Source: Terrabacter sp. Root181
GTDB taxonomy: Bacteria; Actinomycetota; Actinomycetes; Actinomycetales; Dermatophilaceae
Assembly (NCBI RefSeq): GCF_001428505.1
Contig: NZ_LMHU01000001.1
Coordinates: 264,273 to 328,272 of the forward strand
Direction: 5' to 3'
DNA length: 64,000 nt
Part shown: in pieces, positions 20,286 to 35,476 of the stretch
How positions within the stretch are numbered: position 1 is the first letter of the stretch
Layout: every line of letters begins with the position of its first letter
Notes under the pieces: generated by a model
What the model was told of the DNA's origin: nothing
Databases searched by the model: none
Seen by the model: only the letters and a program-made list of their open reading frames with translations
Made by a program: the position numbers and the translations under genes

Positions 20286-21434
20286 GTGGACCTGACGCTC
20301 AGGGTCGCACCCGAGGTGCGACTCGGCTCCGCCACGTCCGGGCTGCGCGCCTTCCTCGACGACATCGCCGGTACGCGCGTGGGCACCGGCGTCGGAGCGC
20401 GCACGTCGGCGTCGACGGGAGGCGACCGGGGCTCCGACCGGGGCTCCGACCGTGGCTCCGACCGAGGCTCCGACCGAGGCTCCGACGGGACCGCGACGCT
20501 GGCAGAGCTCGAGGTGCGCGCGCGCCTGGCCCAGGAGTCGGGTGACCTGAACGCCCTGCGGTCGATCGAGGAGGCTCTCGGAGCGCTCCACCTCGAGAAC
20601 CATCCACCCCGCCGACGCCCCGAGCCGCCGGCGGCGGCCGCCATCTCCGCCAAGGAGCGGAGCCTGCTCGAGCGCAAGGCCTTCCACGCTGCACTGCCGC
20701 AGGTGTCGGTCTTCAAGCGCGCCGCGCGCGCCAAGGCCAAGGCGATCGCCGAGACCCAGGCGGACGGTTTCAGTCGCGCCCTCGACCTCGCGCACGTCGT
20801 CGTCTCCCAGCACCGCGCCGCCGCCCTCGACGACCAGTGGAACCACCTCGCCGGACACGATCGCTGCGCCGTCATCGCCGAGCTCGATGCCGACTTCGCC
20901 GCGGCCGAGTGCGGCTGCACGTGCGTCGACGCCGGCTGGGACGCAGAGACCTCACGGGGCTACGTCACGATCGTGGGCCGCTACCCCTCACTCGACATCG
21001 TGGCCGAGCGAGGACCGGGGGTCTCGTCGAGCGGACGCCGGATGCTGCGTCGCCGCCCGCGCTCCGAGCGCAATGCGCTCTATCTCAGCGGGCTCGCGTC
21101 GTTCGCCCTGGCCACGGCCCGGCGGTCGATCAGTGTCGCCGTCGCCGCCGACGACATCCACCTCGTCATCGTCCGGCCGACCGAGGCCGGCCACGGGCTC
21201 GAACCGATCTACGTCGGCAGCCTGAGCCGGGAGGCCGTCACGCTGCGTCCGGCGCTCGCCGACCCGCTGCCGCTGCTGCTCGGGTCCGCGGCTCGGCCCA
21301 TGCAGTTCGACGGTCCCGCCCACGATCTCGTGGCCGCGGCCCCGGAGGCCGACGTCATGGGCATCGTGCAGATGTGCGTCGACGCGCTCGGCGACGAGGA
21401 GCTCGACGGGCTGCTGGAGACCGGCCACGCCTGA
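20286..21434 (+). CDS. PPGWP-family protein, C-terminal part (paralogue of the 26.2-28.0 kb gene)
   Basis: 382 codons from a GTG one base after the preceding stop. A DRGS tandem repeat (about residues 47-66) is followed by a helical region and a conserved C-terminal domain: GYVTIVGRYPSLDIVAERGP, SERNALYLSGLASFALATAR, DDIHLVIVRPTEAGHGLEPI and YVGSLSREAV. The same blocks occur in the paralogue (AYVTVLVRFATIGIVAEEGR, WERNGVYAAGLASVVLAAAK, DDVNVVVVRPTRNGRGVEPV, YVGRLDREDA). No catalytic motif was recognised and no membrane segment is present. Probably cytoplasmic; the role is unknown. Confidence 0.6.
   Translation: MDLTLRVAPEVRLGSATSGLRAFLDDIAGTRVGTGVGARTSASTGGDRGSDRGSDRGSDRGSDRGSDGTATLAELEVRARLAQESGDLNALRSIEEALGALHLENHPPRRRPEPPAAAAISAKERSLLERKAFHAALPQVSVFKRAARAKAKAIAETQADGFSRALDLAHVVVSQHRAAALDDQWNHLAGHDRCAVIAELDADFAAAECGCTCVDAGWDAETSRGYVTIVGRYPSLDIVAERGPGVSSSGRRMLRRRPRSERNALYLSGLASFALATARRSISVAVAADDIHLVIVRPTEAGHGLEPIYVGSLSREAVTLRPALADPLPLLLGSAARPMQFDGPAHDLVAAAPEADVMGIVQMCVDALGDEELDGLLETGHA
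20424..20483 (+). repeat. five 12-bp in-frame tandem repeats (DRGS)
   Basis: Five copies of GACCGNGGCTCC encode (Asp-Arg-Gly-Ser)x5 inside the PPGWP-family gene. Copy number can change without altering the frame. Confidence 0.9.
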
Positions 21435-21442
21435 ACGTCGGT

Positions 21443-21562
21443 GGCCCCTCGACGGTCGCGAGGGGGCCGAACGTGGCCCTTCGACGGTTGGGAGGGGGCC
21501 GAACGTGGCCCTTCGACGGTTGGGAGGGGGCCGAACGTGGCCTCTCGACGGTTGAGGGGCGG
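21443..21562. repeat. 32-bp tandem repeat array of four hairpins
   Basis: Three complete units (21443-21474, 21475-21506, 21507-21538) and a partial fourth (to 21562). Each contains GGCCC(C/T)TC, then GACGGT and a complementary GAGGGGGCC, so each unit folds into a stem-loop. The array fills the gap between the convergent genes ending at 21434 and 21595 and looks like a multiplied terminator. Confidence 0.8.
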
Positions 21563-21594: not shown

Positions 21595-22392
21595 TCAGGA
21601 GGGGAGGGTGCAGGCGGCGGACTGGCCCTGGGGGGCGACGGCCTGGTAGCCGGGCAGGGTCGCCAGACCCTTCTGCCACAGCGCCCGCCACGCAGCCTCC
21701 GCCGCAGCCGGGGTCATGCCGCCGGCCTTGAAGTGGGACTGGTCCTTGAGGTGGGTCTCCCACGGGGCGATGGCGACGCGGGCCTGGGCCAGCACGCCGC
21801 CCACGGCCTTCAGTGAGGCCGCGCAGCGGCGAATCGCGTCCGCATCGACCCCGGTCGCCCCGGCGGCGACCGCGCAGGCGTCCTTGGAGGCGGCCAGGGC
21901 CCTGTCGGCGGCGCGGAAGGCGACGATGTTGTCGGCGGCCTTCTCCGTCGTCGCGGGCCAGGCAGCCTTGGCCTCGGCCAGGGTGAGCTTCCCGGCCTGG
22001 AGGTCGTTCATGATCTTGAGGTGCCGGTCCCACTGCGAGAGCGAGCGGTAGGCGTCGGCGCGCGCCGCTGACTGCAGGGCCCACTTCGCCCGGCACGACG
22101 CGACGGCCTTGACGATCGGGTCGACCTCCGGCGTCTCGGTGGCCCCCGTGGTCTCCGACGGCGTGGTCGACGGGGTCGTGCTGGGGGCGGGCGTCGTCGT
22201 CAGAGGGGCTGCGACGCCGGGTATCGCGCTCGGCGAGCCGGTCGGCTCGGCCGACGTGAACAGTCCCTTGCCGAACCACACGGCGGCGCCCAGCACGACC
22301 ACGGCGAGCACGCCGATGAGGACGGGGAGGATCCCCCGTCGACCCCGCTGCTGCTCCTTGATCGCCCGACGCGTCTGCGGTTGCTGACCCAT
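21595..22392 (-). CDS. membrane-anchored protein of unknown function
   Basis: 265 aa from the ATG at 22392 (MGQQPQTRRAIKEQQRGRRG). One membrane segment (ILPVLIGVLAVVVLGAAVWF, about residues 21-40) is followed by a Thr/Pro/Ser-rich linker and an extracytoplasmic helical domain. This domain holds two related halves, each with W-x(2)-HLK (WDRHLKIMNDLQAGKLTLAE and WETHLKDQSHFKAGGMTPAA) followed by AWPAT/AWRAL, so it arose by internal duplication. Four cysteines could form disulfides. I recognise no family. Divergent from the HTH-membrane gene. Confidence 0.6.
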   Translation of the reverse strand: MGQQPQTRRAIKEQQRGRRGILPVLIGVLAVVVLGAAVWFGKGLFTSAEPTGSPSAIPGVAAPLTTTPAPSTTPSTTPSETTGATETPEVDPIVKAVASCRAKWALQSAARADAYRSLSQWDRHLKIMNDLQAGKLTLAEAKAAWPATTEKAADNIVAFRAADRALAASKDACAVAAGATGVDADAIRRCAASLKAVGGVLAQARVAIAPWETHLKDQSHFKAGGMTPAAAEAAWRALWQKGLATLPGYQAVAPQGQSAACTLPS

Positions 22393-22665
22393 CCCATCCC
22401 CTACTCGGCCGCCGGTCGCGCGGATGCCCCGGCCCCCACCGGCACTTGCGACCTCGCTTGCACGATAACGCGCTACCCGTGCGTACCCGAACCGAAACCC
22501 CTTGTGATCTGGTCGAATACGGCATATCAACCCCGCGGCAGCCGTAGCGGCGGCGCTGCCCGAGGGGTGGCCAGGGGTGATGCCGCGACAGGGTTCGGCG
22601 CTATCCTCCGAGCGAATCCTGTTGTGTCATGGTTCATCCGGTGGTGCTCGGGGAGTGGAGCGGGG

Positions 22666-23805
22666 GTGGTGGTCGTGACCGTGCTTCCCCCCGGCGAGGG
22701 TCAGGATGCACCCGGTCCGCGTGTCCAGAGTTCGAAACGTCACTACGACAGTGTATTTCGGGCAAATGCCGTCGAACGGGCCAAAGCGCCCGACGCGCGG
22801 CTCTCCGTCGTGGCCACGGACCTCGGGGTCAGCGCCAGCACGCTCCGGCGATGGGTCAAGGCGCACGACGGTGCGACCCCCGCGTCCCCCGCATCCCCCG
22901 CGTCGTCCGACTCTCCGGGCGCACTGACGACGCCCCTCCCGGCGGCGTCGCCGGACGTGCCGGCCCCGCCCGACGTGCCCTTCGCGCCGGTCCCGTCCGT
23001 CCCGCCGCCCGACCCGGCCGCTCCGATCGTCGCCGGGCGCCCGTCGCCGAGCTCGGGCGCCGCCGGGACCGCGGCCTCGGTGACCGCACCCTCGGGGACC
23101 GCGCGGCACGAGGACTCGCACGTCATCGCCATGCTCGACGCGATCCTCGAGATGTTCCCCGGCCCCGGCGCGTTTCCCGCGGGCCACGAGCTCGACGTCC
23201 CCGGTCCGCGTGAGCAGCGCGACGCCGCCGCCCCGGCCGACCGGATCCCGCTGCACCCGGGCGACGACATCTTCCCGGCCCTGTCGAGGCTGCTGCCGGT
23301 CTACCGCTTCCCGATCATCCTGGGCGCCCTGCTCGCCGCCATCGTCTTGTCGCGGGCGGTGCCCGCCGACTACGCCCTGCGCCCCGCGGTCCTCTCCCTC
23401 CACGTCCTCGCGCTCGTCGTCTCGTTCGGGGCCGTCCTCGTCATCGACTGGCACGGGCTGCTCTGGCTCGCCGGACGTCGCGGCCTGACCGAGTCGACGC
23501 GGCTCGCGGCCGGCGCCGGTCCTCTCATCTGGGGCGGCCTCGCCGGGCTCATCGTGTCCGGGGCGCTGCTCCACCCGAACCTCACGTCACCGCTGACGGT
23601 CACCAAGCTCGTCCTCGTGCTCGCCGTCGCCTGGAACGGCGCAGCCATGTCCGCGCTCCGTCGCCGCATGGCCCAGCTGCCGGCGTACGTCACGCCCGGC
23701 AACCTGCCCCGCCGCGACTGGCGCCTCATGATGACCGCCACCGTCGTGTCCCAGGTCGGGTGGTGGGGCGCCATCCTCATCGGCTTCGTCAACTCGTCGA
23801 CATGA
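22666..23805 (+). CDS. HTH-transmembrane fusion protein
   Basis: About 379 aa; several GTG codons (22666, 22669, 22675, 22681) could be the start, with GGAGTGGAGCGGG upstream favouring the first. Residues about 25-70 (RHYDSVFRANAVERAKAPDA, RLSVVATDLGVSASTLRRWV) form a helix-turn-helix like that of IS3-type transposase OrfA. A long Pro/Ala/Ser linker follows, then five hydrophobic segments (from FPIILGALLAAIVLSRAVPA to VGWWGAILIGFV) with histidines (LSLHVLALVV, VLIDWHGLLWLAG) that could bind haem or copper. Its stop TGA begins the mini-ORF relay into the CopD-CtaG gene, so the two probably work together. Confidence 0.6.
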   Translation: MVVVTVLPPGEGQDAPGPRVQSSKRHYDSVFRANAVERAKAPDARLSVVATDLGVSASTLRRWVKAHDGATPASPASPASSDSPGALTTPLPAASPDVPAPPDVPFAPVPSVPPPDPAAPIVAGRPSPSSGAAGTAASVTAPSGTARHEDSHVIAMLDAILEMFPGPGAFPAGHELDVPGPREQRDAAAPADRIPLHPGDDIFPALSRLLPVYRFPIILGALLAAIVLSRAVPADYALRPAVLSLHVLALVVSFGAVLVIDWHGLLWLAGRRGLTESTRLAAGAGPLIWGGLAGLIVSGALLHPNLTSPLTVTKLVLVLAVAWNGAAMSALRRRMAQLPAYVTPGNLPRRDWRLMMTATVVSQVGWWGAILIGFVNSST

Positions 23806-23937
23806 GCATCCACGTGCACGACCTGAGCAGGCCGACATGAGCAGGCCGACATGAGCAGGCCGACATGAGCAGGCCGACATGAGCTGGCCGACATGAGCAG
23901 CCCGACATGAGCAGCCCGACATGAGCATCCCGACATG
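23802..23937 (+). repeat. 14-bp tandem repeat forming a chain of ATGA-overlapping mini-ORFs
   Basis: Between the stop of the HTH-membrane gene (TGA 23803-23805) and the start of the CopD-CtaG gene (ATG 23935) lie units of ATGAGCAGGCCGAC with ATGs at 23837, 23851, 23865, 23879, 23893, 23907, 23921 and 23935, exactly 14 bp apart; a CTG-starting copy is at 23823. From each ATG the frame reads MSRPT, MSWPT, MSSPT or MSIPT and stops at a TGA that overlaps the next ATG. The first mini-ORF (23802) is 12 codons. Eight mini-ORFs thus link the two genes by successive ATGA junctions. Confidence 0.85.
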
Positions 23938-25992
23938 AGCAGCCCCGTGCGGCCCGACGCCTCGGCAGCCGGGGACGACCTGCGTCCGGTGCCACGGGCG
24001 CCGGCCACGCGGCGCTCCGTGCCGCCCGCCGTCGCCCCGGTGGTCGCCGTCGTCGCCGGTCTCGTGGCGTGCGTCGTGGCCGCGAGCTCCACGGGCGCCA
24101 TGGACCCCCTCGTCTTCGTCGAGGACGCCGGGCCCCTCGTGCGGTGGTCGGTGCCCCTCGTCCGCGTCGTCCACGACGTCGCAGCGGCCGTCACGGTCGC
24201 CTCCCTCGCGTTCGCAGCCTGCCTCGTGCCAGCGCCCGTCCGCTCGGGGCCGCGGATCCGCGCCACCGCCCCGACGGCGCCGTTGCGTCTCGCCGTGGGC
24301 GCCGGCTTCCTCTGGCTCGTCACCGCGCTCGCGGGGGCCGTGCTCACCTTCGCGGACGCCGCAGGCCTGCCGCTGTCGAGCCCCGCGCTCGTCCAGCAGC
24401 TGCAAGCGCTCGTGTGGCAGATCGACGCGACGCGGATCGGGCTCATCAGCGGCGCCTGCGCCTTCGTCGTCGCGACCGGGGCCGCCCTCGCGCGCAGCCG
24501 CACCGCAGCCGCCTGGCTCGGAGCCCTTGCCGCCGCCGGGATCGGGGTCCTCGGCCTCGCGAGCCACACGGGCGCCTCCGACGACCACGAGACGTCGGTC
24601 AACGCCATGGGGCTGCACCTGGTGGGTGCGACGACGTGGGTCGGTGGCCTCGTCGTGCTCGTCGTCCTTCATCGCTGGCTCGGCGAGCGGTTGGGCGTCA
24701 CGGCCCGGCGCTACTCCACGCTGGCGCTCGCCGCCTTCGTCGCCGTCGGGCTCTCGGGGGTGCTGGCGGCGACGACGCGCCTTGCTTCCTGGTCCGACCT
24801 CGGCACGCCCTACGGCCTGCTCATCGTCGTGAAGTCGCTCGCCTTCGTGGCGCTGGGCGCGGCCGGCTGGTGGCACCGGCGCTCGACGCTCGACGGCCTC
24901 GACGCAGGGGTCGGTCAGCGCGCCTTCGTGCGGCTCGCCCTCGGCGAGGTGGCGGTCATGGGGGCGACCTTCGGCGTCGCCGCCGCGCTGTCGCGCAGTG
25001 CGCCGCCCGTGCCCGAGGAGCTGCCCGACCCCACCCCCGCGCTCGCGGTCACCGGCTTCCCGGCGCCACCTGACCCCGCGACCGTGACATGGTGGGCGAC
25101 CTGGCGCACCGACTGGCTCTGGCTCGCCGTGGCCGTCGTCGCCATCGGGTTGTATGCCGCCGGGGTCGTCGCCGCGCGCGTGGCCTCCGCGCGGGCCCTG
25201 GTCGAGTCGCACCGCGACGGGAGTCGTGCCGAACCCCTCGAGGACAGCCGCGCGGGGCGCCGACGGGCGCAGGCCGTGGTCGGCTGGTCCCGCCTGCGCA
25301 CCACCTCGTGGGTGCTCGGGTGCCTGCTGCTCGTCTGGACGACGAGCGGGCCCCTCGGGACCTACGGTCGCGTCTCCTTCGCGTGGCACACGGCGCTCCT
25401 GCTCGTGCTCGCCCTCGTCGTGCCGCTGCCGCTCGTCGCCGGGTCACCCGTCAGGCTCGCCGAGCGCGCGCTCGCCTCGCGCGACGACGGCACCCTCGGC
25501 CCGCGCGAGGTCGTCGTCGGGCTGGCGCGCTCCGGCGTCGTCGGCGCGCTGACGCGTCCGGTCGTCGCGACGGTGCTGCTCGTCGCCGGGCTCGTGGTGC
25601 TGCACGCGAGCGGCCTGCTCGACCTCGCCTTCACGACCCACCCCGGTCATCTCGTCATGGTCGCGTCCGCCCTCGCCGTCGGAGTCCTCTGGGCCACGGC
25701 GATGACCGCAGCTCCCGACTCGCCGGCGCGTGGCCCCCTGCGCACCGTCCTGCTGTGTCTCGGCGCTCTCGTGGTGGGTGCCTTCGCCACGGCGGCCTGG
25801 CTGGCCCGCAGCTCCACCATCCTCGCCGCCGAGCCGCTCGGCGGCCTCGACCTGCCCTGGCTGCCCGACCTCGCCGCGGACCAGGTGCGCGCCGGAGCCG
25901 TCATCCTCTTCGTCGTCGTCCCGGTGTGCGTGCTGCTCGCCGTCGTCGCGGCCGCCCGGACGCCGCGGGGGCCGCGCGCCCGAGGTCGCTGA
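23935..25992 (+). CDS. CopD domain - cytochrome c oxidase assembly (CtaG) fusion membrane protein
   Basis: 685 aa from the ATG at 23935, the last ATG of the repeat chain. The N-terminal half (residues about 20-360) has eight or nine membrane segments with ALASHTGASDDHETSVNAMG/LHLVGATTWVGGLVVLVVLH, typical of copper-resistance CopD domains. After a loop the second half is the caa3-type CtaG domain (WVLGCLLLVWTTSGPLGTYG, SFAWHTALLLVLALVVPLPL, ALGVLWATAM region). Such fusions are standard in actinobacteria and deliver copper for cytochrome oxidase assembly. Coupled by the mini-ORF relay to the preceding gene. Confidence 0.85.
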   Translation: MSSPVRPDASAAGDDLRPVPRAPATRRSVPPAVAPVVAVVAGLVACVVAASSTGAMDPLVFVEDAGPLVRWSVPLVRVVHDVAAAVTVASLAFAACLVPAPVRSGPRIRATAPTAPLRLAVGAGFLWLVTALAGAVLTFADAAGLPLSSPALVQQLQALVWQIDATRIGLISGACAFVVATGAALARSRTAAAWLGALAAAGIGVLGLASHTGASDDHETSVNAMGLHLVGATTWVGGLVVLVVLHRWLGERLGVTARRYSTLALAAFVAVGLSGVLAATTRLASWSDLGTPYGLLIVVKSLAFVALGAAGWWHRRSTLDGLDAGVGQRAFVRLALGEVAVMGATFGVAAALSRSAPPVPEELPDPTPALAVTGFPAPPDPATVTWWATWRTDWLWLAVAVVAIGLYAAGVVAARVASARALVESHRDGSRAEPLEDSRAGRRRAQAVVGWSRLRTTSWVLGCLLLVWTTSGPLGTYGRVSFAWHTALLLVLALVVPLPLVAGSPVRLAERALASRDDGTLGPREVVVGLARSGVVGALTRPVVATVLLVAGLVVLHASGLLDLAFTTHPGHLVMVASALAVGVLWATAMTAAPDSPARGPLRTVLLCLGALVVGAFATAAWLARSSTILAAEPLGGLDLPWLPDLAADQVRAGAVILFVVVPVCVLLAVVAAARTPRGPRARGR

Positions 25993-34000: not shown

Positions 34001-35476
34001 GTGAGCCAGAACCAGCCTCCAGTCGTGCAGGACAACCGGCGTTTTGGCAGTCGCTTGGCGGACCGGGTGTTCCGTCCACGCTACGCAGGGCGCAGTGCGT
34101 TGACCGCCATCAGCCTGGCGATGTTTGTCGGCATCGTCTCGGTCGTGGCCATCGCGTTCGTGCTGACGTGGATGAACAGCCAGAACTTCATCCCCGCCGA
34201 GATCGCGATCGCGCTCGTCGTCATCCTCGGAGCGCTGGTACTCGTGCTCTGTGTCGCCTGCCTCTCCATCGTGCTGAAGCGACTGGCGCTGGCCGACAAG
34301 CGGTATGCGATGGGCCTGCCGGACGGCAGCATCCGGGCCATCCTCGCGCTCATGCTCGTGCTCCTCTTCGGCGTGGTGTCGGTCTTCCTCGTGGGGTCGG
34401 CGCAGCGTGGCGGCTTTGAGGGGCGCAAGCTGGACAACCTCTCCACCGCTCAGGTCGACGCGATCCCGGTGGACCAGGTGCTGTCGAAGGTCGAGACCTC
34501 GGACGGGTCCGGTCTGTATGACGTGGTCCTTGTCGCGGCGCCCAACGAGTCCTTCGACGACCTGTCCAAGCAGCTGCTGACGACTCTCGCGACGCTCGTG
34601 GTCGCCATCGCCGCCTTCTACTTCGGGGCGTCGACGGTCACGAACGCGGTCGAGACGGTGAACCCCAGGCGTCCAGCGGCGGACGACGGCGAGGGTGAGG
34701 AGATCACTGCCGAGGAGGCGGCGAAGAGGGCCGAAGCCGAGAAGGCCAAGGCTGCGGAGGCGGCGAAGCAGGCCGAAGTCGACAAGGCCAAGGCTGCGGA
34801 GGCGGCGGAGAAGGCTCAGGCTGAGGAGGCGGCGAAGCAGGCCGAGGCGGAGAAGGCTCAGGCTGAGGAGGCGGCGAGGAAGGCCGACGCCGACACGGCT
34901 CAGACCGAAGGCGCAGCCAAGACCCCAGGAGCCGAAGTTCCCCTGGTCAGCGATCCTTTTGTCGGGACGTCCGAAACGGCTGCGCCGGTGGCATTCCCGG
35001 ACACCGAGGCAGCCGCAAGACTCGCGCGGTCGACTCAGGCGTTCAAGGCGGTCGAGGCCATGGCGGTTGCCGCCCAGGCGGCCCTGGCCGAGCTGTCGCG
35101 CGTGAGAGTCGAGACGACCGAAGCCGCAGGCGACGCAGCAACAGGCACCGCAGCAACAGTGACGGGTGATGCAGCGCCATCGCAGGTCGGACTGGAGACT
35201 GGTGACGATGAGGCGCAGCAGCCGAACGGTCGGAACACCGAGGCTGACGCGAACCGCGAGTCGGCGGCTGGTCCGGGCACCGACGAGCACGGTGGGGAGA
35301 ACGCCACACCCGCCTCGTCCACGACGTCGCGCGAGTCCACTCCCGACACCGCCACGACAGAAGACGCGCCAGCCCCGGAGCCGAGCACCCAGGAGCCCCC
35401 ACCCGCCGCCGTCGCCGAGGACGAGGGCGAGGCGGACAGCTCCGGCGAAGGACCTGACGAGTCCGTCGGGCGCTGA
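34001..35476 (+). CDS. membrane protein with long Ala/Glu/Lys coiled-coil
   Basis: 491 aa from a GTG at 34001 with GAGGGGACC upstream. Hydrophobic segments at about 32-60, 65-90 and 107-130, then an extracytoplasmic or cytoplasmic segment of about 65 residues and a fourth hydrophobic segment (LLTTLATLVVAIAAFYFGAS). From about residue 230 to 310 the repeat AEEAAKRAEAEKAKAAEAAK predicts a long coiled coil, encoded by near-identical DNA repeats at about 34705-34900. The C-terminal 170 residues are acidic and disordered. I recognise no family; a scaffold role is only a guess. Confidence 0.65.
   Translation: MSQNQPPVVQDNRRFGSRLADRVFRPRYAGRSALTAISLAMFVGIVSVVAIAFVLTWMNSQNFIPAEIAIALVVILGALVLVLCVACLSIVLKRLALADKRYAMGLPDGSIRAILALMLVLLFGVVSVFLVGSAQRGGFEGRKLDNLSTAQVDAIPVDQVLSKVETSDGSGLYDVVLVAAPNESFDDLSKQLLTTLATLVVAIAAFYFGASTVTNAVETVNPRRPAADDGEGEEITAEEAAKRAEAEKAKAAEAAKQAEVDKAKAAEAAEKAQAEEAAKQAEAEKAQAEEAARKADADTAQTEGAAKTPGAEVPLVSDPFVGTSETAAPVAFPDTEAAARLARSTQAFKAVEAMAVAAQAALAELSRVRVETTEAAGDAATGTAATVTGDAAPSQVGLETGDDEAQQPNGRNTEADANRESAAGPGTDEHGGENATPASSTTSRESTPDTATTEDAPAPEPSTQEPPPAAVAEDEGEADSSGEGPDESVGR

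Follow-up and report, generated by a model that had tools for sequence, protein, structure and literature searches.

In Terrabacter sp. Root181, a gene encoding a putative helix-turn-helix membrane protein is connected to the downstream CopD-CtaG fusion gene by eight consecutive mini-ORFs, each joined to its neighbours by a 4-nt stop/start overlap (ATGA). We place at approximately 0.55 the probability that this array is a relay, born by slippage, which carries translational coupling over the 129 nt between the upstream stop and the CopD-CtaG start, with a probable loss at each step. The DNA analysed, here called the window, comprises 64,000 nt of assembly GCF_001428505.1 (NZ_LMHU01000001.1, positions 264,273–328,272, forward strand), and coordinates refer to the window unless stated otherwise. 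Papers are cited by PMC accession, and what is said of them is limited to the parts of their text that were accessible.

The ladder between the two genes

The upstream gene (22675–23805, forward strand) was taken from the ORF list and encodes an N-terminus of the HTH_Tnp_1 type (Pfam HTH_Tnp_1, 1.2e-08) followed by a hydrophobic C-terminal part; its putative GTG start at 22675 was assigned from the sequence and from likeness to an ORF of a relative in the same genus (G001). The TGA stop of this gene (23803–23805) shares an ATGA with the ATG at 23802, which opens mini-ORF 1 (23802–23840, forward strand), a frame of 12 codons encoding MSIHVHDLSRPT that was recovered by chain reconstruction. Mini-ORFs 2–8 (23837–23938, forward strand) have five codons apiece and start at 23837, 23851, 23865 (MSRPT), 23879 (MSWPT), 23893, 23907 (MSSPT) and 23921 (MSIPT), each terminating at a TGA that lies within an ATGA, a 4-nt overlap with the next ATG. 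The reading frame shifts at every step, an ATGA supplies each stop, and the ninth ATGA opens the CopD-CtaG fusion gene (23935–25992, forward strand; 685 amino acids; Pfam Caa3_CtaG 1.4e-38, CopD 3.1e-15). The chain described by the sequence-only reading, one mini-ORF of 12 codons and seven of five codons linking the HTH gene to CopD-CtaG through ATGA overlaps, was thus reproduced exactly. Its attribution of the chain to a 14-bp repeat was also borne out, with a refinement: TRF and unit alignment delimit eight units (23823–23934, forward strand; consensus ATGAGCAGGCCGAC), the first of which starts CTGA and lies in frame within mini-ORF 1. TRF itself reported 8.9 copies at 23819–23942, an array of approximately 124 bp. 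Variation between units consists of point changes at unit positions 1 and 7–9 only, with no indels. Since a 14-bp unit is 2 mod 3, the overlaps are kept at any copy number, as had been proposed.

ATGA occurs 149 times on the forward and 170 times on the reverse strand of the window, yet the forward strand holds no chain other than that of the array and the reverse strand holds three chains of one mini-ORF each. When the window was shuffled with preservation of dinucleotides (200 shuffles), the longest chain had no mini-ORF in six shuffles, one in 180, two in 13 and three in a single shuffle; a chain of eight steps is not expected by chance. Triple ATGA at 14-bp spacing gave six overlapping matches in the whole genome, all within the array, and none in a reversed-pattern control. 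A second array is present in the same genome (L944; G000:C11:134075-134143), consisting of GTGACCGGAGTGG repeated every 13 bp and containing six GTGA in register, and precedes a coding-looking ORF of 404 codons. Other tandem repeats in the window are a 32-bp repeat (21441–21554; 3.6 copies, 93% match) directly behind an ORF that terminates at 21434, and nested repeats of 27, 42 and 69 bp of the AAGGCC/GAGGCG type (34714–34903), which are probably coding.

Origin at a single junction and the proposed relay

A search with the upstream protein in 149 genomes of the same family produced matches in 33, including its own, 21 of which covered the HTH part only, and junctions were compared in the 11 relatives whose match had an E value under 1e-20. 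CopD-CtaG lies next to the upstream gene in four of these 11 (G001, of the same genus, G061, G097 and G043), and in all four the pair is joined by a single ATGA overlap; in the other seven, the flank examined revealed no CopD. A CopD-type gene start was also present in a further genome of the genus (G006), where the upstream gene does not adjoin it. Since every relative examined that keeps the pair has one ATGA, the ancestral state was one -4 nt junction, and these comparisons support the array as a derived expansion of it, in agreement with the sequence-only reading. None of the pair-keeping relatives has an unrelated spacer between the genes and, because CopD-CtaG starts within the last copy, no leader follows the repeat. 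The opening 21 nt of mini-ORF 1 still resemble the opening 24 nt of CopD-CtaG, and the score of their alignment was reached by none of 2000 shuffles in which the shared ATGAGCA was held fixed and the remainder shuffled; such a likeness would be expected had the start region itself been duplicated.

No strong Shine-Dalgarno sequence was detected at the nine ATGs (-1.5 to -3.4 kcal/mol, compared with -11.4 kcal/mol for the control) or at the single junctions of three relatives (-2.6 kcal/mol), and for this reason translation of CopD-CtaG probably depends on coupling. Folding of the array RNA was no better than that of shuffles (z +0.82), the array had no match in Rfam, and a terminator scan found nothing.

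In the mechanism that we propose, slippage or unequal recombination would have repeatedly copied a stretch containing the ATGA overlap of a coupled pair, each 14-bp (2 mod 3) duplicate remaking a stop in overlap with the following start. On ending the upstream gene, a ribosome would restart at once, make a five-residue peptide and stop at the next ATGA, and the ninth such restart would open CopD-CtaG. Ribosomes likely use the relay. If a fraction r restarted at each step, CopD-CtaG output would be r^9 of upstream termination, that is 0.39 for r = 0.9 and 0.002 for r = 0.5; with nine restarts in series, CopD-CtaG output would be expected to drop, and sharply so, unless ribosomes restart with very high efficiency. 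For three E. coli gene pairs, reinitiation was reduced by 80–90% or gone at 38 nt (PMC10666635, accessible text), and phage fr constructs favoured whichever start was nearest (PMC12548453, accessible text). On this nearest-start view a dead spacer of 129 nt would uncouple the genes, whereas a -4 nt ladder need not. Some studies report coupling across much longer spacers (as related in the accessible part of PMC12548453), so the relay may be unnecessary.

Arrays in other genomes and in phages

The architecture recurs outside this locus, where neither the units nor the genes are related to those described here. When GTDB-220 contigs were scanned for five ATGA spaced 14 bp apart, at least 113 stretches were returned, in which a script recognized at least 118 arrays, at least 29 of them near-identical and not sub-periodic. 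Among the matches listed, reading by hand identified two clean relays into real genes, of unrelated sequence. In an Actinomycetota MAG (L055) a histidine kinase stop leads through seven mini-ORFs (MTLRP, then six of MTTRP) to an FGGY kinase gene, and in an Alphaproteobacteria MAG (L085) four MIRSR mini-ORFs lead to an ABC1/UbiB-like gene, this relay beginning 3 nt past a TAG that is apparently the stop of the preceding gene. Scans of viral contigs returned 116 stretches at 11 bp, at least 119 at 14 bp and 106 at 20 bp. They include an 11-bp relay from a terminase gene to a 79-aa ORF (L314), two 14-bp gene-to-gene relays (L236 and L268) and two hand-read relays in which the second ATGA supplies the stop of the upstream ORF (L227 and L372).

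Several candidates were set aside. An apparent gene-to-gene relay in Kitasatospora (L074) was dropped, its downstream ORF being, by eye, antisense to an aminotransferase-like ORF. Many GTDB-220 matches were 7-bp repeats seen at 14 bp, and L044 and L061, which lie at gene junctions, were not counted; L050, L126 and L035 were judged by eye to be spurious or unclear. Other viral arrays depart from the gene-to-gene layout. L383 and L394 share the flanks and the 11-bp unit ATGAGATCCTG, which starts exactly at a stop, and have 20 and 10 in-register ATGA, respectively; their unit ORFs end in TGATG, corresponding to a relay type with 1-nt overlap, and no gene lies behind them. L366 and L393 carry a leader-type relay of four MKTL mini-ORFs ahead of an ORF itself starting MKTL, and no gene stop overlaps the first unit. 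In the 20-bp unit of L416 (minus strand), Shine-Dalgarno-like AAGGAGAG or AAGGGAGAG lies ahead of each ATG, so that these mini-ORFs could each self-start.

The family was surveyed for five RTGA words at spacings of 10, 11, 13, 14, 16 and 17 bp, which matched in 10, 9, 8, 12, 9 and 8 of the 149 genomes, respectively. With 8–12 genomes at every spacing, raw array frequency is independent of length mod 3. A reversed-pattern control gave one match at 14 bp and more at the other spacings, so the search patterns alone are not specific. De-duplication left 63 arrays (13, 10, 9, 13, 9 and 9 in the same order of spacings). Relays were called complete when they comprised a coding stop, at least two mini-ORFs and a coding start, coding being judged by GC at codon position 3. 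Complete relays were formed by 9 of the 32 arrays with 2-mod-3 units and by 1 of the 31 with 1-mod-3 units (Fisher P 0.013), an exploratory result and an excess that is partly built in, because a 1-mod-3 unit relays only at every second copy. The nine are the window array (L927), L921, L925, L926, L928, L966, L969, L972 and L981, of which L928 belongs to another genome of the window's genus (G006); in the sole 1-mod-3 case (L1024) the gene start lies 35 nt past the array. L921 was counted with its array beginning about a dozen nucleotides past the upstream stop, and L925 was counted as complete with a doubtful start, since its EamA domain does not begin until residue 182. L992, judged complete by hand, lies outside the automated count. 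Nine of ten downstream proteins scanned had a Pfam match (ResB twice, and once each TetR, ABC ATPase, permease, EamA, glycosyltransferase, VWA and prephenate dehydratase), whilst that of L968 had none. Relays stand directly ahead of ResB in two genera (L966 in G043, 11 bp; L992 in G077, 17 bp) and their unit sequences differ, which argues for repeated origin. Besides L966, G043 holds the window's gene pair with its single ATGA junction.

When co-directional junctions were counted regardless of a chain, they held 15 of the 32 arrays with 2-mod-3 units and 6 of the 31 with 1-mod-3 units (P 0.032, exploratory; 0.014–0.082 over five coding thresholds), and upstream stop and downstream start both lay on array words in six and three arrays, respectively; without the chain requirement the mod-3 preference is weak. 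All P values of the family count are exploratory, since the hypothesis arose after the 14-bp result. Its firmest result is a bias in orientation, arrays at co-directional junctions being sense in 21 cases and antisense in four (P 0.0009, exploratory). This shows that stop/start junctions are where such arrays originate or where they persist, and fits both alike.

These counts bear on a different explanation, which we consider possible but doubtful, namely that the array is a neutral by-product, a tolerated tandem duplication at a junction with useless mini-ORFs, and that CopD-CtaG relies on fresh initiation or on ribosomes drifting past. The orientation ratio of 21:4 and the surplus of complete relays (9/32 versus 1/31) speak against it, as does the lack of a Shine-Dalgarno sequence from which CopD-CtaG could be freshly initiated; the eight units also contain no indel and no broken ATGA after mini-ORF 1, although the changes are so few that this has little power. 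The sense bias, however, would equally arise if arrays were simply born at ATGA junctions, the window array is carried by one lineage only, many arrays lie at gene ends with no gene start behind them (e.g. L919 and L929), and the raw frequency over the six spacings is flat. Viral contigs likewise lacked a mod-3 trend, stop and start both lying on array words in 3 of 41 arrays at 10 bp, 1 of 91 at 11 bp, 1 of 64 at 12 bp, 1 of 70 at 13 bp, at least 1 of at least 47 at 14 bp, 0 of 41 at 15 bp and 0 of 62 at 20 bp; these counts cover near-identical, non-subperiodic arrays and omit loci with earlier ids, so that the script undercounts and misses the hand-seen relays L227, L268 and L372.

Repeat number, transcription and known systems

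A further proposal, which on present evidence appears unlikely, is that the relay persists because each unit cuts CopD-CtaG output by a fixed factor, in which case slippage would set the ratio of the two proteins heritably. Among the genomes compared, one per species, this locus showed no variant in copy number. The geometry leaves every copy number viable, and a similar 11-bp array differs in copy number between viral loci (20 ATGA in L383 and 10 in L394), with no gene behind it. Repeat length at rnc-fpg1 of M. tuberculosis is linked to expression with a positive sign (PMC2734929, accessible text), but that link is at the mRNA level. We think it improbable that the repeat instead contains a promoter or binding sites that drive CopD-CtaG independently of the upstream gene: promoter activity is reported for the MIRU-bearing region between senX3 and regX3 (PMC4213456, accessible text), but here a scan for the sigma-70 consensus detected no promoter in 22300–24300 and no TANNNT occurs in 23780–23940, other promoter types lying outside these scans, and the overlap geometry would be a coincidence. 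An assembly artefact in the repeat number is very improbable, for whilst repeats can be miscounted and the assembly is in 12 contigs, the array is short, its copies are distinguishable by point changes and the same architecture is present in other assemblies.

In phase-variable contingency loci a change in copy number throws the gene out of frame; here, in contrast, the last ATGA opens CopD-CtaG at any copy number, and no upstream start leads into it in frame. Each step of the ladder, like the ancestral junction, is the 4-nt overlap of ATGA termination-reinitiation, but nine overlaps in series with eight mini-ORFs between the genes take the place of one. Termination-reinitiation pairs are described as having stop and start overlapping or within about 20 nt (PMC10666635, accessible text), a spacing that holds at each of the nine steps whilst the two genes themselves are 129 nt apart. 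As in uORF and bicistronic designs, a short ORF would pass the ribosome to the next start (PMC12548453, accessible text); the present case differs in having eight in series, made by a repeat and lacking a strong Shine-Dalgarno sequence. Debate continues, in the accessible text of PMC12548453 and PMC10666635, over whether a ribosome that has terminated can restart at an overlapping start alone or also scans further. The present array, with nine natural -4 nt joins across 129 nt and single-junction relatives available as controls, makes the question testable. In the open-access literature, with most subscription papers outside the scope of the search, no description of mini-ORF ladders of this kind was found.

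The rnc-fpg1 VNTR resembles the array in that a near-zero gap in many relatives (1–54 bp outside the M. tuberculosis complex) has been widened by tandem repeats between genes (279–358 bp inside it), and differs in its long complex units, which start 40 bp past the stop, and in its effect, mRNA level rising with repeat length (PMC2734929, accessible text). It would thus parallel the junction expansion and not a translational effect. The closest known precedent is the mycobacterial interspersed repetitive unit (MIRU), whose own ORF is reported to couple, after insertion, with the adjoining gene at -4 nt (PMC12548453, accessible text). The tandem MIRUs that separate senX3 from regX3 measure 77 and 53 bp (PMC4213456, accessible text), and both lengths are, like 14, 2 mod 3. 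Both systems place tandem intergenic units inside an operon with an ORF in each coupled at -4 nt. MIRU units, however, measure 40–100 bp, with 41 in H37Rv (PMC2734929, accessible text), compared with 14 bp and mini-ORFs of five codons here; MIRUs are interspersed, whereas the array is single in its genome by the ATGA pattern (as opposed to MIRU-sequence homology); and MIRUs are described as mobile, whereas the array was born at its junction, judging from all four relatives compared. The array works like a MIRU in geometry and, because unit length and interspersion differ, is not a member of that family. The array also suggests a simple rule, in which units of 2 mod 3 are the junction repeats that an operon tolerates, and this rule may bear on MIRU unit lengths. 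More tentatively, junction relays might form a recurrent class of intergenic element in Actinomycetota, with 2-mod-3 units born at ATGA or GTGA and kept to preserve coupling across distances that cannot be jumped, repeat number acting as a heritable protein ratio and MIRUs being the mobile version. Set beside these systems, the Terrabacter array is a variant of a known principle, distinguished by its short unit and local birth, and its architecture recurs elsewhere.
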